64,000 nt of DNA from Benincasa hispida (Eukaryota; Streptophyta; Magnoliopsida; Cucurbitales; Cucurbitaceae), in assembly GCF_009727055.1 (NCBI RefSeq), contig NC_052357.1, forward strand, positions 82,399,621-82,463,620, written 5' to 3'. The notes under the pieces were generated by a model. That model was not told the origin of the DNA. It saw nothing but the letters and a program-made list of their open reading frames with translations, and did no database searches. Positions 17,496-63,894 of this stretch are shown piece after piece (position 1 is the stretch's first letter; every line of letters begins with the position of its first letter). A program made the translations under genes and the position numbers.

Positions 17496-18599
17496 TTTGG
17501 GGGTGTTGGTTACTTTGTTTTATTTATTGATCTTTTGTATTTGTTTTTTGTGTTTGTTTTATTCCATTAATGAGTTATCCAATGAAATTGATGAAATTTC
17601 CATCATTTTTCATCTTTGTGTTTGTTCTTAGCATACCTTTTTTGTTCTTTGGCTATTTTTCTTGTCTTGTGCGTTGTTTTACCTCAATGATATTAGTAAT
17701 ATGAAACTTGTAAGTACAGAGTAGGCATTAAGAAAATCAACAAAACCTGAACTTTTGTAAAAAGTCTACATGTTTTCTTTCTAATGCATGCAAGCTCAAA
17801 ATCAAAACTCCTTTCGAAATTCTCAAAGCCTTTTCGAAATTTTGTTTCTCTTTTAGCAATGAGGATTTAGCTAATCTCCAAAATTTGGGGGTGAGGGAAA
17901 TCCAAGTTAAGACGCATTCAATGAGTAAGTTCATCAAAAAGAGAGGAAACAAAATAGAAAGATGTTTAACAGAAACTCTCCTCTGTCAATATTCTATAAA
18001 AGAAAACCTCAATTTGGCATGAGTTAAAAAATTGAAACAGACACTTAGCCGTAGTTGGATACTCGCATGACACCAGTGGGAGCAAGCCAAAACGAAGTTA
18101 AGTCCCGTAGACCAATGCGTCCCAAAACTCCGCTATCTAGTTTAAAGAAGTTGTATCTTGAAATGCATACATGCTAGATATGAGTTTAGTTGTGAAGGGC
18201 TCTCACCCGTAGTTGGATGCTCGCATGACACCCGTGGGGGCAAGAAAAAATGAAAGTGGGATACCTGGAACAACGTATGGGTAACCCATAATTCGTACTT
18301 TTTCTTTCACCGACATACTGTTTTAAAACAAAAAAAAAGCATCTAACGCATTGTTGGTTTAGGAAAAACGAGAATGTTTTGAGAAACGAAAGGAGTCGTT
18401 GACAAAAGGCTTGTTGCACCTAAAATAAAACATTCTTCCTTTTAGAAAAGAATCAACCTGCGTTACATTTTCCAAACTCCAGTCTCAAGCTTATAAGTGA
18501 ATATGATGAGAGGTGAACCCTGCACACTTAAGACAATGGAGATAACAAAGAATCATTTGTGGAATGCTCGAGGACAAGCATTGTTCAAATTTTGGGGTG
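17496..18599 (+). other. 3' control region of the delta element
   Basis: Non-coding. It holds purine tracts AAATTTGGGGGTG at about 17493 and 17882, two conserved modules (18050-18097 and 18207-18257), a hairpin at 18564-18581, and the terminal PPT at 18586-18599. Order and spacing match those of elements M and P. The open frames at 17737-17952 and 18186-18419 on the other strand have no recognisable product. Confidence 0.7.
18050..18257 (+). repeat. Paired conserved module, delta element
   Basis: Copy 1 (18050-18097) reads CGTAGTTGGAT, CTCGCATGACACCAGTGGGA and GCAAGCCAAAACGAAG. Copy 2 (18207-18257) reads CGTAGTTGGATGCTCGCATG, ACACCCGTGGGGGCAAG, then AAAAAATGAAAG. The starts are 157 bp apart. 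Confidence 0.8.
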
Positions 18600-18625
18600 T
18601 GATAACTTGTAGAAATACAAGTTAT
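18564..18625 (+). promoter_or_regulatory. Hairpin, polypurine tract and LTR-start hairpin, delta element
   Basis: ATGCTCGAGGACAAGCAT (one mismatch in the stem), then AAATTTTGGGGTG, then the LTR start T plus GATAACTTGTA, GAAA, TACAAGTTATT. This is the 3' replication signal block shared by all Athila-like elements in the window. Confidence 0.75.
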
Positions 18626-20033
18626 TGTGACTCAAAAGTTGGAACAATTAGGGTCTTTAATGATAAAATCTCTTCATTTTTAGAGAAAACACATGGAACT
18701 ATCGAACTCATGCAAAAGAATGTTTATTGCTAAAATACTGCAGCGCTAACGCATGATATTGCAGGATTTCAACAAATGCATGGGCATGCATCGACGGGAT
18801 TCACCGCAAGGAAGATTCATTGAGTCAGGCTGTTTGTGTCAAATCTCCACTTGCAAGCATGGGCGTCTGAAAAGCATCTGAGTGTCAGGCAGTTGACCAG
18901 GGTATGGAATTTAATGCTACCCCATCATCAAGTTGGAGAAGACCGATGCCTATAAATAGAAAAAATCCCACCAGATGAAGAGATCTTTTAGCTCATTGTA
19001 TAATTCTAAAATTTTGAGACTTTAGAGCTATGTCGTGGTGACGAGAAGGACACAAGAGGGAAGAGAACCACCACCATCGCCGATCAAGGAGTGGAGAAAG
19101 CTAGGCTCGAGAAAGAACTTTCTTCCATTTCTTGCATAAGTGGTTGTACACGAATTAGAATTGAGCCAAAGAGGACAAGATATTTTACTCTACAAATTGA
19201 CTCCTTTCATTTCATCTTACTTATCGTTTTCTTCATCTCATTTGATTGAGTATTGGTTTTGTAAAGACAATCAATTTCTTTATAAATTCACATATTTGAT
19301 CTATCTCACTTCGCCACTGTTTATTTCTTGTTTTATGTTAGATGCATCTATAACTTCATGAAAAATCCAATTCTAAACGCTTAAGCCAACTAAATCACTT
19401 GGTAAAAGCAGCTTTAGCTTAAATTATTCAAGAGAATAAGCAAGCCAGCATCAAGTTAGAAATGCTTAGTACATCTAGAGATAGACGCACTAGTGTTTTT
19501 GTTGCATCTTGTGACTGACGCATACATCCTAGAGATAGGTATTGTATGATATTCTCATTAAGAAGTGTCGAATAGAAGTCTAACGCATAAACGGAGATAA
19601 GCAAGTCATCTCATCCGCATCATATTCGTGTTCGTGTACATTTAACTTAGATCGACGCATATCCTCTGCATCAAACTCCATTTTCACACGATCCCTTATT
19701 TTCTGCTTGACCCTTTTGTATTTTCTTGCACGAACACAGTAGCTTAGTGTAAATAACTCAGTTCTACATTCACTTAGGATATTTCTACAACAGTTACAAT
19801 GCAAGATCTGCGTTAGCTTTAGTCTGAATCCCTGAGTTCGACCCTGAACTTACCAGGTACCTAAGTTGGATTTATACTTGGATCTGATTTAGGAAAACTT
19901 GAATGCCTATAGAGGAGTGTCATGCATCTCGTTGCACATCACTAACCCATCACTAACACATCATTAATGCATCATTCACATTCACACTTATTTTTCCAAT
20001 TACTTTATACAATACACTCCTAAGCTCACATCA
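18600..20033 (+). repeat. Delta-group 3' LTR
   Basis: It begins TGATAACTTGTAGAAATACA directly after a PPT, so it is a 3' LTR. Beyond the first 27 bp it does not match the gamma LTRs. TATA box CTATAAATA is at 18950-18958. The segment near 19825-19880 (GAGTTCGACCCTGAACTTACCAGG) is the conserved late-LTR sequence. The end at CACATCA (20033) is my best guess, as no partner LTR is available. Confidence 0.6.
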
Positions 20034-31037: not shown

Positions 31038-31074
31038 CACCCCCCAAATTTAAACAATGCTTGTCCTCAAGCAT
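31012..31074 (-). promoter_or_regulatory. Hairpin, polypurine tract and LTR-start hairpin, element M
   Basis: Minus strand: ATGCTTGAGGACAAGCAT (31074-31057, perfect 7-bp stem, AGGA-type loop), TAAATTTGGGGGGTG (31052-31038), then LTR T plus GATAATGGGCA, GAAA, TGCACGTTATT. Confidence 0.85.
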
Positions 31075-31372
31075 AAGTTAAGATTTCCTTTAGCAAGTCG
31101 ACCACAATTCTCTTTTCCTAGATTTCCCAAGGATACTCCATGCAAATCCTATACACCAAAATTTCCTCAATTCTTATTCATGTCTCCTCTTAGAATATTT
31201 CTAAGACCTAGGGACCGCAAGTTTAACCTTAAAAAAGGACTTTACTAGATTCCGGGACATCGCATGATTTATTTCAAAAAAACTTTTCCACTGGGGTGTC
31301 AAATGATTTTTTATCCTTGCATATTTCTTGATATTATTATTTTTTTTTCTAACTTTGCACTGGTCCAAGTGA

Positions 31373-31430
31373 CTTGTCTTCGTTTTGGCTTTCCCCCACG
31401 TATGTCATGCGGACATCCAACTACGAGCAA
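31373..31430 (-). repeat. Conserved module 2, element M
   Basis: Minus strand: CTCGTAGTTGGATGTCCGCA, TGACATACGTGGGGGAAAGC and CAAAACGAAG. Confidence 0.8.
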
Positions 31431-31509
31431 TGCGCTCTTTCTCAGACTAAACTCATACCTACTTGGCAGCGGATTTGCGGTTATTTATTTATATGTTGAT
31501 CCTAGCGAC

Positions 31510-33173
31510 TGATGCGTTATTTTATTGAATGGAAATATGGATGATATGCATTGGTGGATTGTGTTGTGCATTCAAGTTTCCCCAACGAAATTCAAGTGTA
31601 AATTCCCCTGGGTTTCCTGGTAAGTCCAGAGTCGAACACAGGGACTTGTGAAAGTAGTTATGTTGGTAATATTTATGACATTTTGTGGTAACCAAGTAAA
31701 TAATAAGTTTTGGGTGTGTTGTTGCATTGATGTAGAAGAAATAAATAAAGGTGGTGGATTTGAGAAAGATAGTTGCATTGATAGATGCAATAAGTATGCG
31801 ATGAACGAGTTGAGAAGGTTTTTTAGCTAGCGTTACTCGGGAATGCGTCAAACCTTGTGATCATGTTACAACCATGCACAACAAATCATTTCCCAATGTA
31901 AATGCGATGCTCCTAAATCTAGGACGCATGTGTTGAATGCAAAATGTCCATAGAGCTTATCTCTAAGTCTCTACTCTTGTCCTATGCGTTGATGCAAAAT
32001 GCATGAAAGCAAGGTGACTGCATAGAATCATACCTTATTGCTAAGATGCATGCGATGTGTTAATAATAAATAGTGCTCATTCCTAAATGCCTATCTCGCA
32101 CTTATGCATTCTAATTTGGTTCTTCTAAACCTAGATTCTGACCTGACCTTCCCAAGTCTAGATCCTGTCTTTAGATTACCCTCCCGAGTATCTCTAAAAG
32201 ACGAATGAAGCATACATAAACAAGATAATCTCAAAGATGAAGATTCCCTCGTTTTGCTAGCTAACTACTTCTCAACCCATTCAACTAATTTAGCTACTCA
32301 TGCATGAATAACAAAGAGTGAACAGATATAGAGAAAGACATTCCATTCTTATAACTGAGTTGAGTACAAAATGATAATGGAAAATAAAGGTAGAGAGCCT
32401 GGTAGCAATTCCTTGCTGACCGAGGCTTTTTACACTGAATCTCTATTCTGATCTACAAATGTTCCCTCTTCCGCAGGCGTCGGCCCTCTCTGTCTTGGAG
32501 CTTCTGGTGCTTTCCCAAGCTTGCCCGAACGATCTATCAGCACACCTTCTTCCTCATGTCCCTCTTAAAATGGAAGAAAACTACGGACAGAGGCGTGAAC
32601 TTGTAAAGTGATGAAGTAATCGACTACTTAACCCCTTCTTTGAAGAATGCACTTGGTATTTATAGAGTTTCCATGGTGAAAGGCGGCTTCTCTCTCCCGG
32701 TTGTACAGATGGGATAGCTTTAATTCCTGACTGATTCGCCTGGTAATTGTCACCGATAAAGCTGAATGTACTTTGTGACTGTTATCAGCTGTCAACTTAA
32801 TTTGGATCCAACTGCCATCAGCTTTCTGTCCCATCGATCTTAATTATCCTTTCATCCAGATGCGCCCACCATGTTGCACCGACCAAGTTGCGGTGATCCT
32901 TTTTGGGCGAATGTTTGCGAGCACGATCAACTCAAAGTCTTACGGTGAAGTTGCGCTCGAGCAATGTATTCCTATGATCGCAATCTCTACACTGCGTTAA
33001 CACATATTCTGCATAAAAATATCAAGATCAACTGCTCTAATGCGTTGGACGCGTGCAAATGCAATATTATAGAATTTATGCTTAATGGACGCAATTTAAC
33101 ATATTTCATCAACACAATCCAACATTGTTTAAGAATTTAATACTATGATAACGTGCATTTCTGTCCGTTATCA
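31510..33173 (-). mobile_element. Alpha-group solo LTR inside element M
   Basis: 1664 bp. The minus strand begins TGATAACGGACAGAAATGCACG at 33173 and ends ...AACGCATCA at 31510. A perfect target duplication GCGAC lies at 31505-31509 and 33174-33178. TATA box at 32657-32665. No internal region is present. Confidence 0.95.
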
Positions 33174-33177
33174 GCGA

Positions 33178-33231
33178 CTTACTTTCGTTTTGGCTTACCC
33201 AACGTGTGTCATGCGAACATCCAATTATGGG
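33178..33231 (-). repeat. Conserved module 1, element M
   Basis: Minus strand: CCATAATTGGATGTTCGCAT, GACACACGTTGGGTAAGCC and AAAACGAAAG. With the solo LTR removed, its distance from module 2 is about 135 bp. Confidence 0.8.
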
Positions 33232-34093
33232 TAAGTGCCCTTCACAACTTAACTCTTATTAACATGGGTTTCCCCATTGCGTTGACAGTGGAGTTGTTAT
33301 TCTCAAATAATTTTTTTTTTATAAAGCTAAAAATAGCAAGGTCAAAAAATAAATACCTCACCCCCAAATTTAAAATGTGGCAATGTCCCTATTGCCAAAA
33401 GATTGAAAGAAGTCATGTGATGTTCTTAGAAAGTTTGGTAAAGGGTCAGTTTGAAAGAAAGCTAGCAGACCACTAACTTCTAGAAATATTCCATGAGGTG
33501 ACTATCCTAAAATTAAGCTGACCCTAATGTATACAAAAGAATAGAAGCATGTGTGTTATATTTGAAATCATAATTGGCAAAGAGAAAATCATGCGGAAAC
33601 TTACTAAATTCATCAATATGGAATGATTACGGTAATCAAAGAGGATGCGGTGATAAAACTTTCAAAATGAAAATGCAATGCAATAGTGCAAAATTTGGAA
33701 TAAAGTCAAGAAAGAATACAACCCCCAAATTTGCGCTATCGCCCGCATTGTTTGTTGACGCATCCTACTTTGCAGCGATTTTCTTCTTTTGGATTGTGGT
33801 GACAGAATGAAGGAGTTGCATCTTCGTGTGGCGCCTCCGCAATTGTTCGCCTCGATTATTTGCAAGAAAAACATTGAGAGGTTTTGAATATTATTAAACA
33901 AAACAAACTCTTTTACCGCAATCCTTTTTTTTTAAAGAAAAGTGTTGATAGATAATCAATAACAACAAAGTAATTGTGATAATAGATAATAACGAGTATG
34001 ACGAAAGTTCATGAAGTATTGATGCAGGAAAAAGGATATTCAAAAGAGTTGCGTCCCTGATGAGGTTGAGTTATATAGTAACTCAAGGACAAC

Positions 34094-36073: not shown

Positions 36074-36074
36074 N

Positions 36075-37149: not shown

Positions 37150-37155
37150 AAAACT

Positions 37156-46823: not shown

Positions 46824-46829
46824 AGTTTT

Positions 46830-46847
46830 TGGCACCGTTGCCGGGGA
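46830..46847 (+). other. Primer-binding site of element P, Asp-tRNA type
   Basis: TGGCACCGTTGCCGGGGA, one difference from the perfect Asp PBS at 8257-8274, 6 bases after the LTR end. Confidence 0.85.
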
Positions 46848-46909
46848 CTTCGGCTAAATAGTGTGCTAACGATAATTTTTATGATTTCTTTGCAGACTCT
46901 CAATCTCTG

Positions 46910-48115: not shown

Positions 48116-48181
48116 AACAACGGTCCAACGCATAGCCAAGCCAGCAGCTCACAAACACCGCAATCTTCGTCCTTAGAGAGC

Positions 48182-49024: not shown

Positions 49025-49934
49025 AGATCCCAAAGGACAAAGAAAAGAAAGAAAAGCCATCATGGACGTGAACGAACCAGCCTGGAATAAGTGGTCCCTG
49101 AGTATTATGTGATTTAACCTCATCAGGGACGCAATCCTTTTGAATATCCTTTTTCCGCATCAAATACTTCATGAACTTTTATCTTACTCGTTATTATCTA
49201 TTATCGCAATTACTTTGTTTTACTGACTATCTATCTACATTGTTCCTATTTCTCTAAATAAATAAAAAATAAAAAAAAACTTGTTGTTTTGTTTAAAAAC
49301 ATTTGACCTTCTCTTTGTTTGTTTATAACGATTAAGGCACAGGATTGCAGAGATGTTACATGAAGCAACAAATTATCTCACTCTATCACCACAATCCAAA
49401 GAAAAGAGATCGCCGCAAAGATGGATGTGTCAATACACAATGCAGGCGACGGTGCAAATTTGGGGGTGTACTCTTCCTTATCTTTATTTCAAATTTTGTG
49501 CTATCACATCGCATGTTAGTTTTAAAAGTTTTATCATCGCATCCTCTTTGATTACTGCAATCATTTGACATAGATAAATTTAGTAAGTTACCGCATGTTG
49601 TTTCTTTGCCAAGTATGAATTCAATGATGAAAAATATGCTTCTATGCCTTTCATATATACTAGAGTTTTCTTAACTTTAAGATAGTCACCTCATAAAATA
49701 TTTCTAGAAGTTAGGGGTTTGCTAGTTTTCTGTCAAACTCTCTTTACAACATTCTAAGAACATCGTATGACTCATTTCAATCTTTTGGCAATGAGGATAT
49801 TGTTGCATTTTAAATTTGGGGGTGAGGTATTTATTTTTAACTTTGCTATATAAAAAAAAATTGAGAATAACAAATCCACTGTCAACGCAATGGGAAACCC
49901 ATGTTGATAAGAGTTAAGTTGTGAAAGACACTTA

Positions 49935-49985
49935 CCCGTAGTTGGATGTCCACATGACACACGTGGGGGCAAGCCAAAACGAAAG
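49935..49985 (+). repeat. Conserved module 1, element P
   Basis: CCCGTAGTTGGATGTCCACA, TGACACACGTGGGGGCAAGC and CAAAACGAAAG. Confidence 0.85.
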
Positions 49986-50081
49986 TAAGTCACCAGGATC
50001 AATGCATAAATAAATGACCACAACTCCATTGCCAAGTAGGCATAAGTTTAGTTCGAGAAAGGGCACATTGCTCGTAGTTGG

Positions 50082-51497
50082 TGTTGGCTTTTTGGCCCTT
50101 AATCTAAAATTAATTAATTTTAATTAATTAATTAATTAATCAATGTTTTGATGATAACAAACTCAATTTTTAATTACTGAAAATCTTAGTGTTTTAATAT
50201 GTTCATAGCATAGAGCTCGGAACAACGATTCTAACACCTCTTGAATCACTCAAATCGGAGCTAAAACGAAGACGATATGACCAAAACAAATCTATAGAGA
50301 AAATACCATGGTGGATGACGTGGCATAACCAGACCATTTGCATGTAGACATGTGGCAGCATATTGGTTGAATTGTGGATCATTAAGAGATTAACATATGA
50401 TGGACTTTTGATTTTTGGATTGATTTAAAATAAAAAAATTGAAATTAAAAAGAAATTTAAAAGGAAAATAATTTAATATTATTTTATGTTTATGTCTAAC
50501 GGCTAGTTTTTTACACATTGATGTTTTTTATTTTTGGATTGTCTTTAAAGAGAATGAATTTAAAAAGAAAATGAATTAAAAGAAAAATGAATTTAATATT
50601 AGTTTATGTTTGTGTCTAACGGCTAGTTTTTGACACATGGTATGTTTTTTTATTTTTTGGATTAATTTAAAAAAAAAAAAATTTTAATATTATATTTTAT
50701 TTGTATCTAATGACTAGTTTAGTTTAAAATCTCCACCATTGATTTTTCTTTTCCAAAATCCAATGGTCCAAATTAATTGTGGTTTCTAAAAATTTTTCCA
50801 TCTCTATAGAAACCATCTTCCTCTCCAAATTGTAAATCAACAAATTTTACATTTCTTAATCCTTCCAAAACTCAAAAGTTTCATTGTTGCTCTCTCTAGT
50901 TCCCAATTTTCTTTTCATCTTATTCTTGGAGAGTGTTATTGTTATTGTGAGGATAACTTTGTGAGTGCTTAAACTTATAAATTCCACTCTACTGAGAGTT
51001 GTATTGTGTTCTTTAAAAATTTCCAACATTTTATAACGGTTTGATTCCTAAACCGTGAAAAGGAATCGGGTTTGCTTTTTGAAACCGTAAAAGGAGCCGT
51101 GGTGTAACAGTTGGGCTCTAATCCGTGGAAAAGAGTCCGGAAAAGATTTTATTCAAATTCTCAAGAGGCGCTTGGGGAGTGGAATAGGTTCGAGTTTGAC
51201 CAAACCACTATAAAAAGTATGGAGTCTTCTTCTCTAACTCTTTCCTTTTTTTTTTTGTAATTAATTTAAGCAATTTTATGTATGTTTTAGTTTGTTCTTA
51301 TTTATTTGCTTTAAAATTTGATAGAAATTAAATTATCACATTTTTGTCATCTTATTTGTTGCATAAATTGAATTTTTCTTATTATTTATATAAAAGTGTA
51401 TTAATTAGTTTAATTGGGTTTAATTTAGAAAAAAAAAAATTAATTAAACCCTTCACCCCCACCCCCCCCCCCATAGGGTTGCCATATCGATCCAAAC
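50082..51497 (+). mobile_element. Copia-type solo LTR inserted in module 2 of element P
   Basis: It starts TGTTGGCTTTTTGGCCC and ends with an oligo-C segment (CCCTTCACCCCC...) followed by GGGTTGCCATATCGATCC. In many plant Copia LTRs an AATTAAACCCATTCACCCCC segment of this kind lies just before the LTR end. Left flank GTTGG (50077-50081), right flank GTTTAG (51498-51503): an imperfect target duplication. There is no internal region and no ORF with homology. Confidence 0.6.
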
Positions 51498-51500
51498 GTT

Positions 51501-51543
51501 TAGATGTTCGCATGACACCATGGGGGCAAGCCAAAAGGAAGAC
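51501..51543 (+). repeat. Right half of conserved module 2, element P
   Basis: GATGTTCGCATGACACC, then ATGGGGGCAAGCCAAAAGGA. The left half, CTCGTAGTTGG, is at 50071-50081. Confidence 0.8.
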
Positions 51544-51858
51544 AAAGCACTTGGATCAACGCAAGGTCAGGAAAAAAAATAAAAAAATAATAATAACAAT
51601 GACAAGAAATATGCAAGGATAAAATTATTTGACACCTCGGTGGAAAAATTTTCTTTTTGAAATAAATCATGCGATGTTCCGGAAGTTAGTAAAGTCTTTT
51701 TGAAGGTTGAGCTTGCGGTCCCTAGGCCTTAGAAATATTTTGAGAGAAGACTTGAACATGATCTAAGGAAACTTTGGTATATAGGAACTGAATGAAGTAT
51801 CCATGAGAAATCTAGGAAAAGAACATTGTGGTTGACTTGCTAAAGGAATCTTTAGCTT

Positions 51859-51921
51859 ATGCTTGACGACAAGCATTGTTTAAATTTGGGGGTGTGATAA
51901 CGGGTAGAAATGCACGTTGTC
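51859..51921 (+). promoter_or_regulatory. Hairpin, polypurine tract and LTR-start hairpin, element P
   Basis: ATGCTTGACGACAAGCAT (7-bp stem, loop ACGA), TAAATTTGGGGGTG, then LTR T plus GATAACGGGTA, GAAA, TGCACGTTGTC. Confidence 0.85.
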
Positions 51922-53562
51922 ATAGTGCTAAGTTCTTAAACAATATTGGATTGTGTTGATAAAAACATGTTAAATTGCGTCCATCAAGCATTAATTTCAT
52001 AATAATGCAGTCGCATGTGTTCAACGCATAGGAACAGTTGATTTTTGTATTTTTATGCAGAATATGCGTTAACACAAGGCAAGAATTGCGATCATAGGAA
52101 ATCATCGGTCGAGTGCAACTTCACCACAAGGCTTTGCGATGATTGTGCTCGCAAACATTCGACCGAGAAGGATTGCTGCAACTTGGTCAGTGCAACATGG
52201 TGGGCGCATCTGGATGAAAGGCTAACTAATCACGATGGGATAGAAAGCTGATGACAATTGAATCCGAATTAAGTTGACAGCCGATAACGATCATAAGTAC
52301 ATTCAGCTTTTCGATGACAGGCGCATCGGTCAGGAATTAAAGCTGTTCCATCTGTACAGTCATGAGAAAGAAACCGTCGTTCACCTTGGATGTTTTATAA
52401 ATACTAGAGGCATCCTTCGGAAAAGGGGTTCACCGGTCCACCATTCTTTAGTTAGAAATTCATACATTCGCACGTCATTGTTCATAGTTTTCTTTCATTT
52501 TAAGGTGGACGTAAGGGAGGATGTTGTGCCGGCAAATCGTTCCGGTAAGCTTGGGAAAGCACCGGAAGCTTCAAGGACAGAGAGAGGGTTGATGCCTACG
52601 GAAGCAGGAACATCTTTAGAACCGAACAGAGATTTCAATGTAAAAGCCTCGGTCAGCAAAGAATTGCTACCAGGCTCTCTATCTTTAACTTCCATTGTCA
52701 TTTTGTACTCCATTCATTTATCGAAATGAAATATATTTCTCTATCTGTTCACTCTCTGTTATTTATGCATGAGTAGCTAAATTAGTTGAATGGTTTGAGA
52801 AGCATTTAGCTAGCACAACTAGGGAATCTTCGTTCTATGCGATTATCTTGTATTATGTATGTTTCATTCGTCCATTAAAGATACTCGGGAAGGTAGTCTA
52901 AGGGCAGGATCTAGACTTGGGTAGGTCAGGTTAGAATCTAGGCTCGAGAGAGTCAGATTAGAACGCATAATCATGAGATAAGAGCTTAGGAATGAGCACT
53001 ATTTTTTATCAACACATCGCATGCATCCTAGAGATAGGATATGATTGTATGCGGTCACCTTGATTTTATGCATTTTGCATCATCGCATAGGACACGAGTA
53101 AAGACTTAGGGATAAACTCTATGGACACTTTTGCATTCAACACATGCATCCTAGACTTAGGAGCATCGCATTTGCATTGGAAAATGACTTGATATGCATG
53201 GTGGTAGCATGATCGCATAGTCTGACACATTCCCTAGTAACGCTAGCTAAAGATCTTCTCAACCCGTTCATCGCATACTCAGTGCATCTATCACACAACT
53301 GAATTTTCTCAAATCCGCCACATTTGTTTATTTTCTCATTAACACAATCAACAACAAACCAACAATTTATTTATTTGGCCACCACAAAGTTTTCATAAAA
53401 ATTACCAATGAAATCTGTTTTCACAAGTCCCTGTGTTCGACCCTAGACTTACCAGGAAACTTAGTGGAATTTACATTTGGATTCCGCTGAAGAAACTTGA
53501 GTGCACAACGCAATTTCATCAATGCATATCATCCATAATCCACTTCATGAAATTAAGCATCA
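51895..53562 (+). repeat. Element P 3' LTR (alpha)
   Basis: 1668 bp. It starts TGATAACGGGTAGAAATGCA and ends TTAAGCATCA. TATA box TATAAATA is at 52396-52403. It carries the 432 bp missing from the 5' LTR. Confidence 0.92.
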
Positions 53563-53575
53563 GCAATCCAGGCTT

Positions 53576-53583
53576 TATATAAA
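53576..53583 (+). promoter_or_regulatory. TATA box of beta LTR1
   Basis: TATATAAA, matched by the same box at 57161-57168 in LTR2 within GGCTCTATATAAAGAAGCC. Element P sits immediately upstream, so the normal U3 of LTR1 is now 8 kb away. Confidence 0.65.
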
Positions 53584-55075
53584 GAAGCCGATGAGCAAAA
53601 ATTCAACTTGTACAGGGATTTCCCCTGCAACCCAGAGTTCTCCATGTGATCCAGACAAAATGCGTGAGAAGACGCTTGAAATTTCTTCACCTCCTTCATC
53701 CATTCAAAGTGACGACCGGAGCCTTCGACCGGAAGTAGATCTCGGGAGAGTCAGCTCTACCACCCATCCATGGCACCACCGACAGCCTTGACGCACATCT
53801 GTTGGAAGCAAGTCTTTGCTTCCAGCCAGTTATTTCATTTTCCTTTCTTTTCTTATATTGTATTGTATGACATTTGGTGATTATGGAATTAATACAATTT
53901 ATTTTCAATGCATTTCTATGTTCCTTCGATTCCATCTCCATCATCTTCACTTAGCTTCTTTACTTTCATTGCAACACTTAGTAAGATTGCTTGGGTATCG
54001 CATACTTAGTCATGTGGATTAGGGATATGAAGCATGTAGCAACCCACCGAAAGGTGTGCGTTGCGTGAGTGTATGAGTAACCTCATTTTCTTAGTGTGAA
54101 GCTGCAGCAATGCCTGTCTATAGGCTAATGCAATGCCTGTCTATGAGTAAAGTCAGTAACAACCAACTGCCCAAGAGGGTAAGTGGTTGGTTGCATTAAG
54201 CAATGTAAGTCATTGTTCATTCGGGATAGGAACAATCTTAGGTCAACAGAGTTCATGCGGTTACCTTGTCCTATGAGTGCTTCATTCATCATTTAGACAT
54301 ACTTGGGAGAGTAGTTTAAAACCCAAATCTAAGACTCGGAAGAGCGGATTGGAACACATAGGCAAGAATGGGGAACTTAGGGATAAGCTCCGTTTGCTAT
54401 CACATAGTGTATGCATCCTACGGAAATGATATTGCATGCATCCAAGAGGTAGAATAAGGTGTTATGCGGCTATCACGTTGATGCGGTGAGAGCTCGTGAG
54501 CGGGTTATGGACATTTAGGCAGGTATAGGCTTCCCGGCAATATCATAGATACATCGCATACGTCCTAAAGTTAGGTTTACTAGTGTGTAGCATGATTGCA
54601 TGATTTGCGTTGACTAAGGTTGCCCTTGCGGTCACTCTTAAGAGTTGCAATGAAATCCTCTCCACATTTTATCTATTTTCCCATTCATTTATTTCATGTC
54701 AAGAGTTGTCGTGTCTCTACCTCTCATGTATATTCTCATTGCGTTGTCTGTTAGTTAGAAGAAGGAGTAGGATTAGCTTAGCAACCCCTCCAACATTCTT
54801 TTATTTAACCGTCGCATGCACATTACAACATTCAGCTAGCTACAAGTCCCTGTGTTCGACCTCGGATCACCCGAGAAACTTGCGTTCACGTTATACTTGG
54901 CGTGAACGCAAGAAAACTTGTGACAAGACGCATGGTCATCGTTCGTAACGCATAATCATTCTAACGCATGACCATCAACGCATGACTATCAACGCATACC
55001 TTAAGAACATGCATCGCATATTGCATCTAAGGGATTTTAATTATCGAGTATTTGACGTCTAATTTCCTGTCATCA

Positions 55076-56568
55076 AGTTTTTGGCATCGTTGCCAGGGAC
55101 TTGGCAGCTAATTGTTTGTTGAGTTTTGTGCCTCTGCAGGCAACCTTTTTATCTTGGGAGTATTGTAGCTTGTGCGACCAGGCTACAAACAATATTGAAG
55201 TGTAGGCGATGCGCCGAAAGCCAGTATTGACCCCAAGGTAGAAGGGCAATTAGTCGTAAAAGAGCTGAAGGTAGTTCTAAGCACATGGTGGCCAACATGT
55301 GCCGAACAATTGTCGGAAGTTCTAAGGTCAGGGCATGATCGTTGACCCAAGTAGTTGAGAGTAATCTCCTGTATGGAAGATTCCTTGCTGTGATAACACT
55401 CTTATTTTTCCAGGGACGTCTTCTACTCTATCTTTAACTTGCTTTCTTAGTATAGATTATTTTTATTTTCATTGTTATTTTGGATATATGGCTGCTTTCT
55501 TGGTTGTGGTGCGTTTGCTCTTGTAGGTGCAACAATAAGTCTCCTCGGTGTGTAGTTCAATGGAAGAATTCCTTTCATCCTTCAACGCATGGCTTCAGTC
55601 GCATGAATTCCATGCATGATCGCATATGTTGTTCCGCCTAAGGTATTTTCCTGTTATCTTGTATGCCTTATCCTTTGAAATTCTCTTTTTCCCGATTGCG
55701 TTGCTTTGCGATGTTTCTTTGATGGTACGTATAATTCATCACATATTCTAATTAATCATCGCAAGACACTCATTTCTTTTATTAGCTTCTTCAAATTTTG
55801 AAAGTCTTAAGTTTTATTTTGTGCAAACTTCTGCTCAAACATTTATTACTACATTCTTGTAATTTTGATTTTAGTTTTGCGGTGAGAACGCTGCCACCTC
55901 TAAGTTTGGGGGTGGCAGCGGTCTCGGAGAATTGCGTTCATTACATTGCGATCATTTAAAAAAAGTGAAGCGCTTTTTTTAGAATAATAACTCCACTATC
56001 AACGTAATGGGGAAACCCATGTTGATAAGAGTAAAGTTGTGAAAGGCACTTGCTCGAAGTTGGATGTCCGCATGACACACGTGGGGGCAAGCCAAAACGA
56101 AGGCAAGTCGCCAGGATCAGCGCATAAGCACACTCCTCTGTCCGGCGCAAGCCAAATCAGACAAGAAAAGAGTTGAGTTGAATATGGAATGCAACCAAAG
56201 TTGGATGCCCGCATGACACACGTGGGGGTAAACCAAAACGAAGGGCGTAACCAGGTTCAACGCCGCATTTGAATAAGTCATCGCAAAATTTTTGAAGTAT
56301 TTTGAACGAACGCATTCTCAAAAGCTAAATGCAAAGTTGCGGTGAATGAATAAAAAGTTCTTTAGCAAAGGCTTGCCAGATTTAAACTTAGAAAAGATCT
56401 TTTTGAAGAAGCAGCCAAAATGGAGGAAAGCATTGCGGTGATGGTCAGAGGTGTGTGTAAATTATATTTTGAGAAGATGGTCATCGCAAAGGAAAACATG
56501 AAGGTGAGTTAGAATTTCTTGAGTATAACACATGCTTGAGGACAAGCATGATTTTAAGTTTGAGGATG
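55076..56568 (+). other. Beta internal region 1, non-coding
   Basis: PBS TGGCATCGTTGCCAGGGA at 55082-55099 (Asp type, two changes). There is no gag or pol in any frame. It holds a purine tract inside a hairpin (CTGCCACC ... GGTGGCAG, 55889-55917), modules 1 and 2 (56053-56103 and 56195-56245), hairpin 56532-56549 and a weakened PPT (AAGTTTGAGGATG, ending 56568). Confidence 0.85.
56053..56245 (+). repeat. Paired conserved module, beta internal region 1
   Basis: Copy 1 (56053-56103): TCGAAGTTGGATGTCCGCAT, GACACACGTGGGGGCAAGCC and AAAACGAAG. Copy 2 (56195-56245): CAAAGTTGGATGCCCGCATG, ACACACGTGGGGGTAAACC and AAAACGAAG. About 142 bp apart. Confidence 0.88.
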
Positions 56569-56595
56569 TGATGACATACAGAAATGCATGTCATC
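56532..56595 (+). promoter_or_regulatory. Hairpin, polypurine tract and LTR-start hairpin, beta LTR2
   Basis: ATGCTTGAGGACAAGCAT, AAGTTTGAGGATG, then LTR T plus GATGACATACA, GAAA, TGCATGTCATC. One arm base is changed relative to the beta consensus. Confidence 0.85.
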
Positions 56596-58748
56596 TTAGG
56601 CCTTTTACTTATAATTATGAAGGTTGTTAAGCAGAATATGTGGCAATTGTTCTAGGAATCCATGAGAAAAGTGAGCTTGCGTCGTTCAACATGATGAATC
56701 TCGGCTAACCCATTATTATGCGATATTATGCGTTCAATGTTCTATTTTTGTAGCTAACGCACGTAAACACAAAAACCGAACCACCGTATAGACGACCGCA
56801 TACGGAGAAACTCTCCATCGCAAAGGCGAACGCGTCGATCAACGCATAGATGTTGCGGTAATCAGTTGTATGTGTCTATCGCATGGGACTTGTGCTATCA
56901 AGCGATTACGGTCATCGTGTAGAGTTGCGGTATTAAGCGAATGCGGTCATTGAATGATTGCGGCTACACAATAACACATGCTAATGGAATCAATGCAAGG
57001 TTAGTGGAATGAACGCATCAACGCATCTACCTTGAGAAAATCAAAAGTTGATGTTGACATTTCACCTACCTTTCCGTTAGCGGCAGAGGTTCCGAAAGGA
57101 CTAAATGCGCAAAATGTTAGAATCAGAGTAGTCCATTAATGCTGTCAGCAATCCAGGCTCTATATAAAGAAGCCGATGAGCAGACATTCAACTTGTATGA
57201 GGATTATCCCTACAACCCAGGGTTCTCCCTATGATCCAGACAAAATGCGTGAGAAGATGCTTGAGAGTTCTTCACCTCCTTCATCCATTCCAAGTGACGA
57301 CCAGAGCCTTCAACCGGAAGTAGATCTCGGGAGAGTCAGCTCTATCGCCCATCCATGGCACCACCGATAGCCTTGACGCACATATGCATGAAGCAAGTCT
57401 TTGCTTCCAGCCGGTCATTTCATTTTTCTTTCGTTTCTTATATTGTATTGTATGACATTTTGTAATTAAGGAATTAATACAATTTGTTTTCAATGCATTT
57501 TTGTGTTCCTTCGATTCCATCTCCATCATCTTCACTTAATTCTTTACTTTCATTGCAACACTTAGTGAGATTGCTTGGGTATCGCATGCTTAGTCATGTG
57601 GATTAAGGATATGAAGCATGTAGTAAACCACCGAGAGGTGTGCGTTGCGTGAGTGTGTGAGTGACCTCATTTGCTCAGTGTGAAGCTGCAATAATGCCTG
57701 TCTATAGGCTAATGCAATGCTTGTCTACGAGTAAAGTCAGCAACAACCAACTGCCCGGGAGAGTAAGTGGTTGGTCGCATTAAGCAATGTAAGTCATTGT
57801 TCACTAGGGATAGGAACAATCTTAGGTTAGCAAAGTTCATACGGTTACCTTGTCCTATGAGTGCTTCATTCATCATTTAGGCATACTTGGGAGAGTAGTC
57901 TAAAACCCAAATCTAAGACTCAGAAGAGCGGATTGAAACGCATAGGAAAGAATGGGGAACTTAGGGATAAGCTCCGTTTGCTATCACACAACGTATGCAC
58001 CCTACAGATAGGATATTGCATGCGTCCAAGAGGTAGGATAAGGTGTAATGCGGCTATCACGCTCATGTGGCGAGAGCTCGTGAGTGGGTTATAGAGGTCT
58101 AGGCAGGCATAGGCTTCTTGACAATATCGCAGATACACCGCATACGTTCTANGCGAGAGCTCGTGAGTGGGTTATAGAGGTCTAGGCAGGCATAGGCTTC
58201 TTGACAATATCGCAGATACACCGCATACGTTCTAAAGTTAGGTTCACGTGTGTGTAGCATGATTGCATGGCTTGCATTGACTAAGGTTGCCCTTGCGATT
58301 ACTCTTAAGGGTTGGAATGAAATCATATCCATATTTTATCTATTTTCCCATTCATTTATTTCATGTCAAGAGTTTTTGTGTCTCTACCTCTCATGCATAT
58401 TCTCATTGCATTGTCTGTTAGTTAGAAGTAGAAGTAGGATTAGCTTAGCAATCCCTCAAACATTCTTTTATTTAACCGCCGCATGCACATTACCGCATTC
58501 AACCAGCTACAAGTCCCTATGTTCGAACTCGGATCACCCGAGAAACTTGCGTTCGTGTTATACTTGGCGTGAACACAAGAAAACTTGTGACAGGACGTAT
58601 GATCATCGCATACATTTGTAACGTATAATCATTCTAACGCATGACCATCAATGCATGACTATCAACGCATACCTTAAGAACATGCATCGCATATTGCGTC
58701 CAAGGGATTTTAGTTGTTGAGTATTTGACGTCTAATTTCCCATCATCA
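56569..58748 (+). repeat. Beta LTR2, shared middle LTR
   Basis: 2180 bp as assembled. It starts TGATGACATACAGAAATGCA and ends CCATCATCA. It contains an exact 82-bp duplication across a single N at 58152. Without the 83 extra bases it is 2097 bp, matching LTR1. TATA box at 57161-57168. Open frames at 57176-57370 and 58250-58621, and their LTR1 counterparts (53501-53791, 54610-54948), are conserved only because the LTRs are; no known product. Confidence 0.9.
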
Positions 58749-60196
58749 AGTTTTTGGCATCGTTGCTGGGGACTTGGCAGCTAATTGTTTGTTGAGTTTT
58801 GTGCCTCTGCAAGCAACCTTTTTATCTTGGGAGTATTGTAGCTTGTGCGACCATGCTGCAAACAATATTGAAGTGTAGGCGATGCGCCGAAAGCCAATAT
58901 TGACCCCAAGGTAGAAAGGCAATTAGTCGTAAAAGAGCTTAAGGTAGTTCTAAGCACATGGTGGCCAACATGCGCCCAACAATTGCCGGAAGTTCCAAGG
59001 TCAGGGCATGATCCTTGACCCAAGCAGTTGAGAGCAAACTCTTGCATGGAAGACTCCTTACGGTGACAACACTCTTATTTTTCCAGGGACGTCTTATACT
59101 CTATCTTTAACTTGCTTTCTTAGTATAGGTTATTTTTATTTTCATTGTTATTTTGGATATATGGTTGCTTCCTTGGTTGTGGTGCATTTTCTCTTGTAGG
59201 TGCAATAATAAGTCTCCTCGTTGCGCAATTCAACGGAAAAATTCCTTTCATCCTTCAACGCATTCTTCAGTCGCATGAATTCCATGCATGATCGCATGTG
59301 TTGTTCCGCCTAAGGTATTTTCCTATTATCTTGTATGTCTTATCCTTTTGAAATTCTCTTTTTCCCGATTGCGTTTCTTTGCGATGTTTCTATGATGGTA
59401 CGTATAATTCATCGCATCTTCTAATTAATCATCGCAAGGCACTCCTTACTTTTATTAGCTTCTTCAAATTTTGAAAGTTTTAAGTTTTATTTTCTGCAAA
59501 CCTCTGCTCAAACATTTATTATCGCATTCTTGTAATTTTGATTTTAGCTTTGCGGTGAGAACACTGCCAACCTCTAAGTTTGGGGTGGCAGTGGTCTCGG
59601 AGAATTGCGTTCATTACGTTGCGATCATTTAAAAAAAAAATGAAGCGCGTTTTTTAGAATAATAACTCCACTGTCAACGTAATGGGGAAACCCATGTTGA
59701 TAAAAGTAAAGTTGTGAAAGGCACTTGCTCAAAGTTGGATGTCCGCATGACACACGTGAGGGCAAGCCAAAACGAAGGCAAGTCGCCAGGATTAGCGCAT
59801 AAGCGTAACTCCTCTGTCCAGCGCAAGCCAAATCAAACAAGAAAAGAGTTAAGTTGAATATGGAACGCAACCAAAGTTGAATGCCCGCATGACACATGTG
59901 GAGGTAAGCCAAAATACGAAGGGCGTATTTTGAACGAACGCATTCTCAAAATCTATATGCAAAGTTACAGTGAATGAATAAAAAGTTTTTGAGCAAAGGC
60001 TTGTCGGATTTAAACTTAGAAAAGATCTTTTTGAAGAAGCAGCCAAAGTGGAGGAGAGCATTGCGGTGATGGTCAGAGGTATGTGTAAATTATATTCTGA
60101 GAAGTTGCTTATCGCAAAGGAAAGCATAAAGGTGAGTTAGAATTTCTTGAGTATAACGCATGCTTAAGGACAAGCATGATTTTAAGTTTGGGGGTG
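58749..60196 (+). other. Beta internal region 2, non-coding
   Basis: PBS TGGCATCGTTGCTGGGGA at 58755-58772. Same layout as internal region 1: purine tract near 59575, module 1 (59729-59779), module 2 (59870-59922), hairpin 60160-60177 (one mismatch), PPT AAGTTTGGGGGTG (60184-60196). No coding sequence. Confidence 0.85.
59729..59922 (+). repeat. Paired conserved module, beta internal region 2
   Basis: Copy 1: TCAAAGTTGGATGTCCGCAT, GACACACGTGAGGGCAAGCC and AAAACGAAG. Copy 2: CCAAAGTTGAATGCCCGCAT, GACACATGTGGAGGTAAGCC and AAAATACGAAG. Confidence 0.85.
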
Positions 60197-60223
60197 TGAT
60201 GACATGCAGAAATTCATGTCATC
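60160..60223 (+). promoter_or_regulatory. Hairpin, polypurine tract and LTR-start hairpin, beta LTR3
   Basis: ATGCTTAAGGACAAGCAT, AAGTTTGGGGGTG, then LTR T plus GATGACATGCA, GAAA, TTCATGTCATC. Confidence 0.85.
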
Positions 60224-60308
60224 TTAGGCCTTTTACTTAGAATTATGAAGGTTGTTAAGCAGAATATGCTGCGATTGTGCTAGGAATCCATGAGAAAAGT
60301 GAGCTTGC
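60197..60308 (+). repeat. Beta LTR3, first 112 bp only
   Basis: It matches the starts of LTR1 and LTR2 up to GTGAGCTTGC, then is cut by a gamma LTR. In LTR2 the next bases are GTCGTTCAAC. The last five bases, CTTGC, should be the gamma element's target duplication. Confidence 0.88.
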
Positions 60309-62207
60309 TGTTACGCAAAAACTATACCATGATGCACACAAGGTTCAAGTCCATAAACTTGACACACACAAATTTGAGTCTTAAACAATGCACTAATACA
60401 AATATGGATATGCATAGTGATATGTGATGATGTGTGATACTACTTCTAGAAATGCGTTATTAACGAATGTTCTTGTAGTATGTTGTGCATTGTCGCAAGT
60501 TTCCTTGTGTTGAAACCAAGTATAATTTCACCGCAAGTTTCTCGGTGTGATCTGAGGTCGAACACAGGGACTATTTTAGGTTATTGCATTATGCTTGTGA
60601 TACATACGACCAAGGTTTTTTCAATTTATAAAAGAATTTGTGTACAAGAAATTAAACATGCGATAAAGTAAAGTAAAGCAGTAAAATGTGACAATAACAT
60701 AAATTGCATTAAAGTAAATCTAAGCTAAGATGATACAAGATACAGGTTTCATGATACAAGATACCGAGGTCAAGGTTGACTGTGAAGATATACAAAAATC
60801 GTGTTATGTGGTGGCAAGTCTTATGTGTGAAATAAAAAGAGAAAAGATAATTAGCACACACATCGCAAGTTCCTTAATTGCGTTAAAGGCATAAATACAG
60901 TTCCGCTTTTCCCTTGACGTACACCTCTCGGTGATCGGCCGTGCTTCCACATCTCTGTGATGAAACAAGGACAAACGTAATGAACGCAAGGTTTCTTCCA
61001 TCACTGGAAGTACTTTTTACTTTAGTTAACGCATTCTTCTAACCTTCTCTCGACAGATCAGAATGGCATCTTCACTTCTGCTCTCACAGGTGAAGATGTC
61101 GTCTAGCATGCTTTAGCTAAACCTTCTTATTTCTTTAGCATAGAGTAAGTTACTTGTTTAATTCATATTAATTATCAAGGGATTAAGAAGACTTTATGAA
61201 GAAAGTCATAAATGGAGGAACGGAAATAGACAAAGAAGGGGATATGAAAATGATCGAGACATTCAATATTTCTATTCAGCGTCTGATACATGATTTGTGA
61301 ATGAAAAGATTAAGAAGATGAAATACAGTGATGAATAGAGTTAGAAACAAATACAAATAAACGCCAATGTCTTGGCACCGATCTGGATGGAGTTTTGATC
61401 GCCAATGTGGATGGATCATGCAGACGAATGAGCTTCCCTCTCAGGCTTGCTCAACTGGTAGCAGGGATCTGAGTATAGAGCTTCGCGGCGGGGATCTGGC
61501 AGAATAGCACTGAGACTCACCTCTCGGCCTTATCTCTTTTCTTCCTGGATTTCTTCCGATCAGTACTCAGCTCAGCCTCTCTCTCAATAATTCAGCAGCA
61601 ATTAGACCTCATATCAATGATACACATATCAAGTATATCTTCTCTGAATTCTATGGGGGTATTTATAGGTGAAAAGCTTTGACTCTTGGCTAATGGACCC
61701 CACTTCTTGTTATGGAAATTCCAAAGATGGAGGAATAAATATTCTTTCTATTATGCAATCAGACCGTCAAATCTACACAACGGTTAGTTGTACACATGTC
61801 ACAATCCTCCGCGTTTGTGTTGCTCAGCTACATATTTCGATCGGTTGCTCGCATGCGGTGTTGTTTTTATTACCGCATGCGGTTGAAATTTAGCTCGGGA
61901 TCGACTGTCACATTGCACCATCATTGCATTAATTGTCTCTTCATTGTGGATTGACAGGCGCAATGTAACAGAGATGCGTTGTTCAGTTTCTTGTTGAACC
62001 TTAATCGCAAGTGGTGACTTGGTTTCCTGCAAAATAGAGTAAAAATATCCTCTTCTACCATCTTGACGATGTTAGTGGGTGTACAATTGCGTTAATTCAT
62101 AATTATTGTATTTCTGAGCTAATTTTCATACAATCAACGCATATTCCTTCTCTTTTGGCCGCAATATCTAGATAAGGCAGAATAACTTGTATTTCTACAA
62201 GTTATCA
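60309..62207 (-). repeat. Gamma-group 3' LTR
   Basis: 1899 bp. The minus strand begins TGATAACTTGTAGAAATACA at 62207 and ends TTTGCGTAACA at 60309. TATA box (CTATAAATA, minus) at 61660-61668. It aligns with the solo LTR at 11022-12815 and the inverted LTR at 14189-15975. Confidence 0.9.
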
Positions 62208-62244
62208 CACCCCCAAATTTAGATATATGCTTGTCCTCAAGCAT
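62181..62244 (-). promoter_or_regulatory. Hairpin, polypurine tract and LTR-start hairpin, gamma element
   Basis: Minus strand: ATGCTTGAGGACAAGCAT (62244-62227), AAATTTGGGGGTG (62220-62208), then LTR T plus GATAACTTGTA, GAAA, TACAAGTTATT. Confidence 0.87.
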
Positions 62245-63894
62245 ATCTTCTACTAAGGCAATAAAGCTAAATTCCTCTCCTATATTTTTGCATCGATTGG
62301 CTGCTCCGAATGTTACAGTCAGACGCATTTCTTAACAACGCAGTTTCCTTCTATCCTTGCTAATTCTGAACAAAGCCCTACTTTATTCTTCTATATAACA
62401 AAATTCTGCTCAAAGATTCTTTTCTAGTTTTGAAAATGGAATGCTTATCTCTTCTTTGTCAAAATAACTTGATATGTCTATATGCAGTGGTCAAACTTTG
62501 CGTTATTTAATAGAGACTGTTAGTCATGGTTACACTCTTCATGTTGGTTTGTTCCCACGGGTGTCATGCGAACATCCAACTATGGTTATGTGCCAATTTC
62601 AACTTTAACTCATGATATTCAGAGGAGTTGTCTCTTATCCTCTTTTATTTTCTCTTTTATTGCTTTGTTCTTGAAAACCCACCTTCTTTTTGGCTTGCTC
62701 CTACAGGTATCATACGAACATCCAACTACGAGCATACTTCTTTCACAACTAAACTCTTATCAGGTTAAGAACATTTTTTAGGTTTTTCCTTGCGCTGACA
62801 TTGGAGTTTTGTATAATTTTTTTTTAAATGAAAAATGAACGCATTTTCTTAATCATCGCATATTCTTGATCTTATCTGCTCAGACCTTCCCCACCCCCAA
62901 ATTTAAAGATAAGCAAGGTCCTCATTGTGTTGTTTGGATAGACTAGACAAACACTTAGAATAAAAAATTTAAAAAAAAGGTTTGAGCAAAACTTTGAAAG
63001 ATAAAAGGTAAAATACTGCTAAACTAAAAATTAACTAAGTGTTAGTCAGATTTTACAAAGTATGGGAAATGTTTCTATGTATAAACATATATTACATCAT
63101 GGCAACATAATGAATAACGCAATCAATAAAAGATCAGAACATCGCAAATATTAACAAAGGATGATAAAGAAAAAGGCACAGGCAGAAAAGAGTGAATATG
63201 TACTCAATTGTATTAAATATTAACAAAGTATACAAAGAATGAAAAATTAACGCAATACAAAAATTTCTGCCTATACAAAGAATCAAAGAATTTCGTTAAC
63301 TTTTTAAATTTGATTCAGATGGGTGCATGTTAAAATTTGACACCCTACTTCTAATAACGCAAATACATCTTTGCTGAGGACAGGCAACAACGCATGCACC
63401 CCCGCAACACACCCCTTAACTAACACATTTCTGGAGGATACCTCAACATAGTGCATTTGGCTAAGGACGGGCAAAGGATACATACGCATGCAACACACCT
63501 CTTAACACAATGTATTTGGGTGTACTGGACGCAAGGTGTCTCTTGTTAACTCACAGAGTACCCATCATCGCATTACATACTAATTTCTCTTCTTTTTATG
63601 TCATAAAAAATGCAAGTAAAAAAGACTTTGCAGTGTCTAATGTTTCATCCAATCCTTCACAAAAATTAAAGAACAATGCTACTAATGTATACAAACTAAG
63701 AGAAATAAGCATGACATGAAAAATGAAATTGAAGAGAATTACTGAAAACATCAAATGCTACTTCTAAAAAGCAGTAAATAACATGATTTATAAAGCAGTA
63801 AAAGAAAACTGTAAAGAAAGCAAGTAAACATAGATAGGGATGCTGATTGAAAGAAGTTCTCAGAATTACCATAATTACTTCCCCCGCAAACGGT
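62208..63894 (-). other. 3' control region of the gamma element
   Basis: About 1.7 kb without coding sequence, between the pol stop and the LTR. It has a purine tract AAATTTGGGGGTG near 62901-62889, two modules (62733-62684 and 62588-62539) and the terminal hairpin and PPT. The part 62960-63890 is A-rich on the plus strand and I see nothing else in it. Confidence 0.7.
62539..62733 (-). repeat. Paired conserved module, gamma element
   Basis: Minus strand. Copy 1 (62733-62684): CTCGTAGTTGGATGTTCGTA, TGATACCTGTAGGAGCAAGC and CAAAA. Copy 2 (62588-62539): CCATAGTTGGATGTTCGCAT, GACACCCGTGGGAACAAACC and AAC. The starts are about 145 bp apart. The most diverged pair. Confidence 0.75.

Follow-up and report, generated by a model that had tools for sequence, protein, structure and literature searches.

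A paired, covarying RNA hairpin upstream of the 3' long terminal repeat in presumed Athila-like retrotransposons of Benincasa hispida

A 64,000-nt stretch of the Benincasa hispida genome (contig NC_052357.1, positions 82,399,621 to 82,463,620; hereafter the window) contains several long terminal repeat (LTR) retrotransposons, termed delta, M, P, beta (with two internal regions, beta1 and beta2) and gamma. We take them to be Athila-like, an assumption that goes back to the original prediction and to general knowledge, and that rests on the layout of their primer binding sites (PBS) and polypurine tracts (PPT), not on a reverse transcriptase (RT) tree. Two copies of a non-coding module are found in these elements, between an extra PPT-like tract and the short hairpin and PPT that adjoin the 3' LTR. 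We conclude that the module is, almost certainly, a structured cis-acting RNA. A cis-acting RNA signal had been proposed from the letters alone, and the proposal is now well supported by compensatory changes, a G-U bias, the lack of codon-phase bias and the retention of the module in beta, which has no gene.

The window holds 12 module places, 11 whole and one split by an insertion, and the module was present at every position for which it had been predicted. A covariance model made from 11 window copies (R1) found the 12 places in the 64 kb with E-values from 6e-32 to 9e-9, and none besides up to E = 10. Nhmmer profiles were tested by leaving out groups, the seven beta, P and M copies being set against the four delta and gamma copies. 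The profile of the seven recovers the other four (E = 8e-20 to 3e-15), the delta plus gamma profile recovers the copies of the remaining groups (E = 2e-23 to 4e-10), and the top match elsewhere in the window has E = 0.49. According to the R1 matches, the starts of the two copies are 158 nt apart in delta, 141 and 142 nt in beta and 146 nt in gamma; the distance in P is 136 nt, as given by the core coordinates of the original prediction. Module 2 of P is interrupted by an insertion (left part ending near 50081, right part beginning near 51500), while in M both modules are whole and a solo LTR (31507-33173) lies between them. The conserved unit measures about 98 nt, not the 50 nt or so first ascribed to the module, because a variable but pairing outer stem encloses the conserved core.

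On the sense strand the module is a hairpin with a variable, paired outer stem in three parts, a near-fixed inner stem, an internal loop (mostly CRWAR opposite AANGAA) and an ACACM loop. The full structure has 26 pairs: S1 (GTTG/CAAY), S2, S3, S4 (TTGG/CCAA), S5 (TGYYC/GRGCA) and S6 (CATG/CGTG, replaced by TATG/TGTA in gamma copy 1). Depending on the copy, S3 reads ACTTAC/GTAAGT, ACTTGC/GCAAGT, TCTCAC/GTGGGA or ATGC/GCGT. From a plain MAFFT alignment of 11 of the 12 modules (A1; the split module 2 of P was omitted here and from the swap test below), RNAalifold returned 18 pairs, which cover the inner stem and part of the outer one. In A1, 90.0% of 281 cells are paired and both-side changes occur in 10 of the 26 pairs (19 cells); 0 of 500 shuffles reached these values on each of five measures, and slid structures were 29.5-45.9% paired. 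In the swap test, the 22-nt flanks of the core paired better within than between copies (own pairing -125.5 kcal; permuted -101.2, standard deviation 8.7). Own pairing was reached by 231 of 50000 permutations, and by 375 and 855 of 50000 with 8 and 7 less redundant copies.

Since the 26-pair structure was partly derived from the A1 rows, it was retested on further loci, all from the genome of the window. The 30 loci per family were the best 30 of 40 scored candidates (of 1,393, 1,390 and 2,449) and lean towards near copies of the query. In family alignments fitted to the model, 92.5% of 1475 cells were paired in beta, 93.9% of 1504 in delta and 93.5% of 1500 in gamma, and three of the five measures beat 500 of 500 shuffles in each family. 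A second plain MAFFT alignment (A7) comprised 32 modules, from 15 of the 90 loci (chosen among loci with two good copies) plus module 1 of P and module 2 of M. Run on it unguided, RNAalifold gave 23 pairs, comprising the inner stem and the outer stem in its three parts; 97.1% of 736 cells were paired, with both-side changes in 10 pairs (60 cells) and six standard pair types at one outer pair, and shuffles reached A7 in 0 of 500 cases on four measures and in 43 of 500 on pair types. In an alignment-free swap test of 15 modules from eight further loci, own pairing amounted to -185.6 against -153.0 for permuted flanks (standard deviation 10.1), a value reached by 53 of 50000 permutations. One S6 pair occurs as C-G in 32 of the 59 gamma rows and as U-A in 26; in A7, four of five first copies have U-A at this pair and all five second copies have C-G. 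Row relatedness inflates the shuffle tests; swap tests and repeated compensations are less exposed to it, but not immune. An extra 3-bp helix in the internal loop (CGU/ACG) showed no covariation above shuffles, 330 of 500 or more of which reach it.

With one fixed U-G pair set aside, A1 contains 34 G-U cells versus 10 A-C cells, a relation that is reversed on the other strand. The antisense fold z-scores of eight modules range from 0.14 to -1.08 (module 1 of P and of delta being nearly equal on both strands), and at the eight further loci the antisense flanks pair less (-163.1) than the sense flanks (-185.6). On account of this G-U bias, the fold z-scores and the weaker antisense pairing, the module is most probably to be read as sense-strand RNA of the element.

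A partner module was present at 86 of the 90 loci (26 of 30 in beta, two of them weak, and 30 of 30 in both delta and gamma). The hairpin and PPT/LTR junction were found downstream at 25 beta, 22 delta and 30 gamma loci, as opposed to 0 of 30 in each reversed control; a PPT-like tract, counted with no reversed control, lay upstream at 25, 29 and 29 loci. A core pattern with 25 fixed letters has 2,617 exact matches in 913 Mb and zero when read backwards. Eight matches, hand-picked by position from the first 100 listed on one contig with odd letters included (hence a non-random sample, with no reversed control), were checked for occurrence of the module outside retrotransposon 3' regions, and each of them has a PPT/LTR junction downstream, at up to 4 mismatches. 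The hairpin is within 2 mismatches in six of them (6 and 7 in the other two), and seven have a partner module. In a tree of 32 modules, delta 2, gamma 1, gamma 2 and beta 2, four of the six copy groups, appear as clades with support; neither delta 1 nor beta 1 resolves as a clade, nor does the tree resolve the order between families, and the first copies of a family never lie within the clade of its second copies. Because of these copy-group clades, the pair probably predates the spread of each family. Elsewhere, three patterns gave 0 matches each in viral contigs, one 451-nt query gave none in plasmids, and genome contigs gave one match, in a bacterial contig of 74% GC and without the rest of the module.

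The surroundings of the module had been said to differ between elements, and this holds among delta, beta1 and gamma: identity is 59-74% in the modules, 42-63% in the sequence that separates the two copies, 54-59% in the 3' spacer and 53-86% in the PPT itself, with the PPT-side hairpin as the best conserved 3' block (94-100%). Divergence within families was measured on the module not used as query, at 24 of 30 beta and 29 of 30 delta loci. This module diverges less than its flanks in delta (0.109 versus 0.190; 0 of 5000 shuffles) and, more weakly, in beta (0.113 versus 0.146; 132 of 5000, or 54 of 5000 without CpG-type columns), so that the check on equal divergence came out clearly in one family and less so in the other. 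The weak beta difference would suit a DNA-level element or a duplicated relic kept by mere shared ancestry, as would the beta core alone, whose divergence (0.116) is barely different from that of the 3' spacer (0.123). Compensatory changes, the G-U bias and the delta divergence below that of the flanks speak against such an origin, which we consider very improbable.

The beta internal regions start at the PBS (55082, 58755) and are about 1.44-1.49 kb long; their longest stop-to-stop stretches on either strand, both on the minus strand, are 92 amino acids in beta1 and 106 in beta2, in agreement with the claim that the module is kept in beta without protein-coding sequence. Compared with the internal regions of P and M, that of beta1 shows similarity (E up to 1e-3, a threshold that the short PBS does not reach; LTRs were left out) only over the modules and their leader, among other matches a stretch of 150 nt at 89%, and over the final ~80 nt. 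Beta1 matches gamma over the 3' ~800 nt at 60%, and delta over 270-480 nt at 59-65%. The pattern shared by beta1 with P and M is the one that cis signals common to a gene-less and a coding element should produce.

A frame reading V-G-C-x-H-D-T-R-G-G-K-P-K-R can be followed in most copies, as would be expected of a short coding remnant. This candidate was rejected, and we regard it as next to impossible: stop-to-stop stretches are 19-57 amino acids in nine copies (another frame was read for module 1 of delta and of M), stops lie inside module 2 of delta and of gamma, variable columns by codon phase number 6, 8 and 8 of 16 (nine of 11 copies; module 1 of M and module 2 of beta2 omitted), and beta has no gene of note. 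Conservation of the module is therefore not due to coding, as had been argued at the outset. A tRNA gene or tRNA-like element, considered for an A/B-box resemblance seen by eye, was also rejected, as ARAGORN finds none in the window. Rfam 15, self-cleaving ribozymes included, gave no module match over the whole window at the gathering cut-off; at E up to 10 on 55880-56330, two matches below cut-off appeared, one to mir-451 upstream (E = 0.063) and one to a snoRNA that touches module 2 at its end (E = 8.8). Dimerisation through a CACGTG palindrome, one way in which a role named in the original prediction could be fulfilled, is unlikely and was dropped as a candidate: by eye the palindrome is seen in only 4 of 11 copies and is missing from both modules of delta, M and gamma and from module 2 of beta2.

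As to function, the most likely reading, to which we give a little less than an even chance, is that the module routes full-length RNA (nuclear export and delivery to Gag) in the manner of the direct repeat (DR) elements of Rous sarcoma virus (RSV). The near-invariant inner stem, internal loop and apical loop would be read by a protein, to which the outer stem, free in sequence as long as it is paired, would present the fixed inner part; two copies may raise avidity. Once bound by protein, unspliced RNA of full length would be marked for export from the nucleus and for delivery to Gag, and gene-less beta RNA would keep the module because it depends on the same route if proteins from elsewhere are to copy it. 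The reader of the module could equally well be a host protein or a protein of an autonomous relative.

Known systems are compared here as far as the accessible portions of the cited articles describe them. In RSV, direct repeats of 115 nt flank src (PMC3856414) and are said to bind NXF1 and DDX5 or to act via Tap indirectly (PMC3856414, PMC7551171, PMC5035971). RSV and other avian sarcoma-leukosis viruses resemble the present elements in having two direct repeats of ~100 nt in the 3' part of a retroelement RNA (paired here at the 86 loci mentioned), but their repeats flank a gene, whereas here the starts are ~140-160 nt apart with nothing coding between; moreover, an animal element is set beside a plant element and the two are likened by layout. 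The constitutive transport element (CTE) of Mason-Pfizer monkey virus and simian retrovirus is a stem-loop of 150-175 nt with two internal loops (PMC7551171). A long stem-loop with internal loops between the last gene and the 3' LTR is also found here, although as two separate hairpins in direct orientation instead of one hairpin with two internal loops. The RNA transport element of intracisternal A particles and the musD transport element are likewise cis RNA elements that export full-length LTR retrotransposon transcripts; the latter is said to use a pseudoknot and kissing loops (PMC12786077). Among plant LTR elements, Sireviruses share conserved non-coding motifs and multiple PPTs, but they belong to Ty1/copia, with palindromic repeats located both in the LTR and on the env side and with an inverted repeat at the PPT, and the portion of that article available to us mentions no covarying hairpin of ~98 nt (PMC2829016). 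A more specific proposal, which we regard as doubtful, is that the module is the plant counterpart of the CTE and DR elements: a duplicated hairpin, common to several Athila-like families, that would recruit a plant export or ribonucleoprotein factor. Apart from PBS, PPT and LTRs, it would then be what a gene-less parasite chiefly has to keep in order to be mobilised.

The main rival of routing and export is a packaging signal, whose hairpins would be bound directly by an Athila-like Gag nucleocapsid and would select RNA for particles, with no role in export; we see it as a real possibility, though not a probable one. Besides the short PBS, the internal regions of beta1 and of the gag-bearing P share only the modules and the hairpin-PPT, which fits a packaging signal. 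In Ty3, both untranslated regions (UTRs) and POL are reported to be needed for localisation and packaging, and 5' sequence plus a short 3' part are retained in miniTy3, the minimal version mobilised in trans (PMC11381356); point mutations in an avian 3' UTR gave a packaging defect, to judge from a title cited in PMC3856414. However, the known packaging sequences of Ty1, Ty3 and human immunodeficiency virus (HIV) type 1 are placed at the 5' end (PMC11381356), and the same core serves families whose proteins may differ. An element acting on RNA stability or translation (exonuclease block, control of the poly(A) site or shield against silencing) rather than on routing appears improbable. Its location in the 3' part of the transcript and hairpins more stable than shuffles in several copies agree with it, yet a role in translation would be pointless in gene-less beta, and near-fixed internal letters suggest specific recognition.

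A little more improbable still is an element of reverse transcription, by which the module would anneal primer tRNA-Asp or circularise the RNA, like the 3' half of the bipartite PBS of Ty3. The A-loop of HIV offers a parallel. Several elements do have a PBS complementary to the presumed tRNA-Asp end, and five letters of the apical AUGAYA are complementary to the Asp anticodon loop (by eye, on the presumed tRNA sequence). Ty3, of the same superfamily, uses its UTRs for packaging and a 3' part of its PBS for priming, but the available portions of these reports mention no duplicated hairpin (PMC11381356, PMC4974528), and here complementarity to the primer tRNA beyond chance was not found: in the seven of 11 copies examined, the energy of the duplex between core and tRNA-Asp was reached by 1, 5, 43, 50, 64, 71 and 159 of 300 shuffles, with counts of 5 or fewer in the two beta1 copies alone. 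Part of the tRNA complement also sits in a covarying stem. Priming through tRNA-Asp complementarity, another of the roles first envisaged, is thus not supported.

Several points weigh against routing or against the structure on which it builds. Export, packaging, translation and stability cannot be told apart on the structure alone. Plants are said to use TREX rather than NXF1 (PMC12786077), and therefore no known CTE receptor can be assumed. Nothing points to an intron in beta RNA, and an RNA that lacks introns may leave the nucleus with no special element. In the fitted beta, delta and gamma alignments, the number of pairs with both-side change was reached by 6, 283 and 51 of 500 shuffles and the number of pair types by 101, 488 and 71, as may be expected because the rows are near copies. 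RNAalifold on a MAFFT alignment of the 15 further modules gave the inner stem only; we think that MAFFT misaligned their outer arms, which is why the alignment-free swap test was used for them. Module 2 of M does not fold into the outer stem by energy, module 1 of P has nearly the same z-score in sense (-0.59) and antisense (-0.58), and the individual sense z-scores of the eight modules are modest (0.01 to -3.16).

The elements were mapped through self-comparison together with PBS, PPT and LTR starts (Table 1). P (45584-53562) is inserted in the 5' LTR of beta1, and M and gamma are on the minus strand. Beta forms a tandem at 44990-60427 (LTR-internal-LTR-internal-LTR), the first LTR of which holds P. 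Complementarity to the presumed tRNA-Asp end is 17/17 letters at 8258(-) and 14/17 at 37133(-), 55082 and 58755; a delta PBS was not found within the window, and gamma showed no clear one. This complementarity and the extra internal PPT in the 3' region are both Athila-like traits. Wright and Voytas reportedly dealt with Athila4 and Calypso in 2002, in work that may bear on the module. An extra PPT is known for these two elements (PMC2829016). When eight open reading frames were scanned, the P gag matched PF03732 and the sole RT match was to copia-type RVT_2, below cut-off; five Gag homologues yielded no lineage name. An Rfam match to snoR71 (47438-47544, minus strand, 41.9 bits with a cut-off of 40) lies opposite to the P gag frame and is possibly a false positive or a gag-derived family.

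Table 1. Positions of modules and associated features in the window
Feature	Position	Strand	Remarks
delta module 1	18025..18122	+	~98-nt hairpin; R1 84.4 bits
delta module 2	18183..18280	+	R1 96.2 bits; own minimum-energy fold is outer stem and S5/S6
M module 1	33158..33254	-	3' end cut by solo LTR; R1 84.5 bits
M module 2	31353..31453	-	R1 75.8 bits; own minimum-energy fold retains inner stem only
P module 1	49912..50009	+	R1 107.5 bits
P module 2, left part	50045..50081	+	Not joined; seen directly; nhmmer alone weak, E 0.69
P module 2, right part	51500..51566	+	Not joined; nhmmer E 1.8e-10; R1 39.3 bits
beta1 module 1	56030..56127	+	R1 115.8 bits; fold z -3.16, 0/200 shuffles
beta1 module 2	56171..56267	+	R1 92.8 bits; fold of 56165-56267 z -2.87
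beta2 module 1	59705..59802	+	R1 111.7 bits
beta2 module 2	59847..59945	+	3' arm partly lost; R1 74.7 bits
gamma module 1	62658..62755	-	R1 92.3 bits
gamma module 2	62513..62609	-	R1 81.9 bits
beta1 internal region	55082..56568	+	PBS at start, PPT at end; no coding sequence of note
beta2 internal region	58755..60196	+	No coding sequence of note
P PBS	46830..46846	+	16/17 letters complementary to presumed plant tRNA-Asp 3' end
delta internal PPT-like tract	17881..17893	+	Upstream of module 1
P internal PPT-like tract	49812..49824	+	Upstream of module 1
M internal PPT-like tract	33359..33371	-	Upstream of module 1
beta1 internal PPT-like tract	55902..55914	+	Upstream of module 1; 1 mismatch
gamma internal PPT-like tract	62892..62904	-	Upstream of module 1
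delta hairpin and PPT at 3' LTR	18564..18599	+	ATGCTTGAGGACAAGCAT type, 1 mismatch
P hairpin and PPT at 3' LTR	51859..51894	+	Hairpin with 1 mismatch
M hairpin and PPT at 3' LTR	31038..31074	-	Hairpin 31057
beta1 hairpin and PPT at 3' LTR	56532..56568	+	PPT degenerate
beta2 hairpin and PPT at 3' LTR	60160..60196	+	Hairpin with 1 mismatch
gamma hairpin and PPT at 3' LTR	62208..62244	-	Hairpin 62227

Besides the real PPT, two internal PPT-like tracts about 355-390 nt apart are seen in each of P (49456, 49812), M (33720(-), 33359(-)) and delta (17493, 17881). A short hairpin of ATGCTTG AGGA CAAGCAT type precedes the PPT in 6 of 6 elements seen. LTRs start at 18600(+), 62207(-), 51895(+), 31037(-), 56569(+), 60197(+), 33173(-) and about 15973(-), and open with a palindrome around a fixed GAAA loop (ATAACTTGTA-GAAA-TACAAGTTAT type), the arms of which vary by family and stay paired. 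In this palindrome 92.3% of 78 cells are paired and both-side changes occur in 3 of 10 pairs; shuffles reached it in 0 of 500 cases on three of five measures, while for the remaining two measures 152 and 354 of 500 did so. Inspection by eye extends the repeated unit of the module further upstream in several elements, where each copy is preceded by an ACTCC.CTGTC-like block; in P, M and beta this block lies in the leader of module 1 and recurs before module 2. The same leader (49861-49911, 55978-56029) bears, again by eye, a hairpin of ATGGG-GAAA-CCCAT type, with one G fewer in P. At 40004 (+), an exact CGCATGACAC stands without the rest of the module amid short direct repeats, with no model match.

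No earlier description of the paired hairpin was found in the titles and abstract openings surveyed, and the way in which plant LTR-retrotransposon RNA leaves the nucleus has reportedly not been investigated directly (PMC12786077). What emerges is a doubled RNA structure that is supported by covariation, is present in three families with 30 checked loci each and is kept in a gene-less element. The module provides a concrete bait for the protein that reads it, and the covariance model can be used for annotating non-autonomous Athila-like elements. It may also explain cross-family mobilisation, of the kind that has been deduced for pol-less Athila elements of Arabidopsis (PMC2410132).

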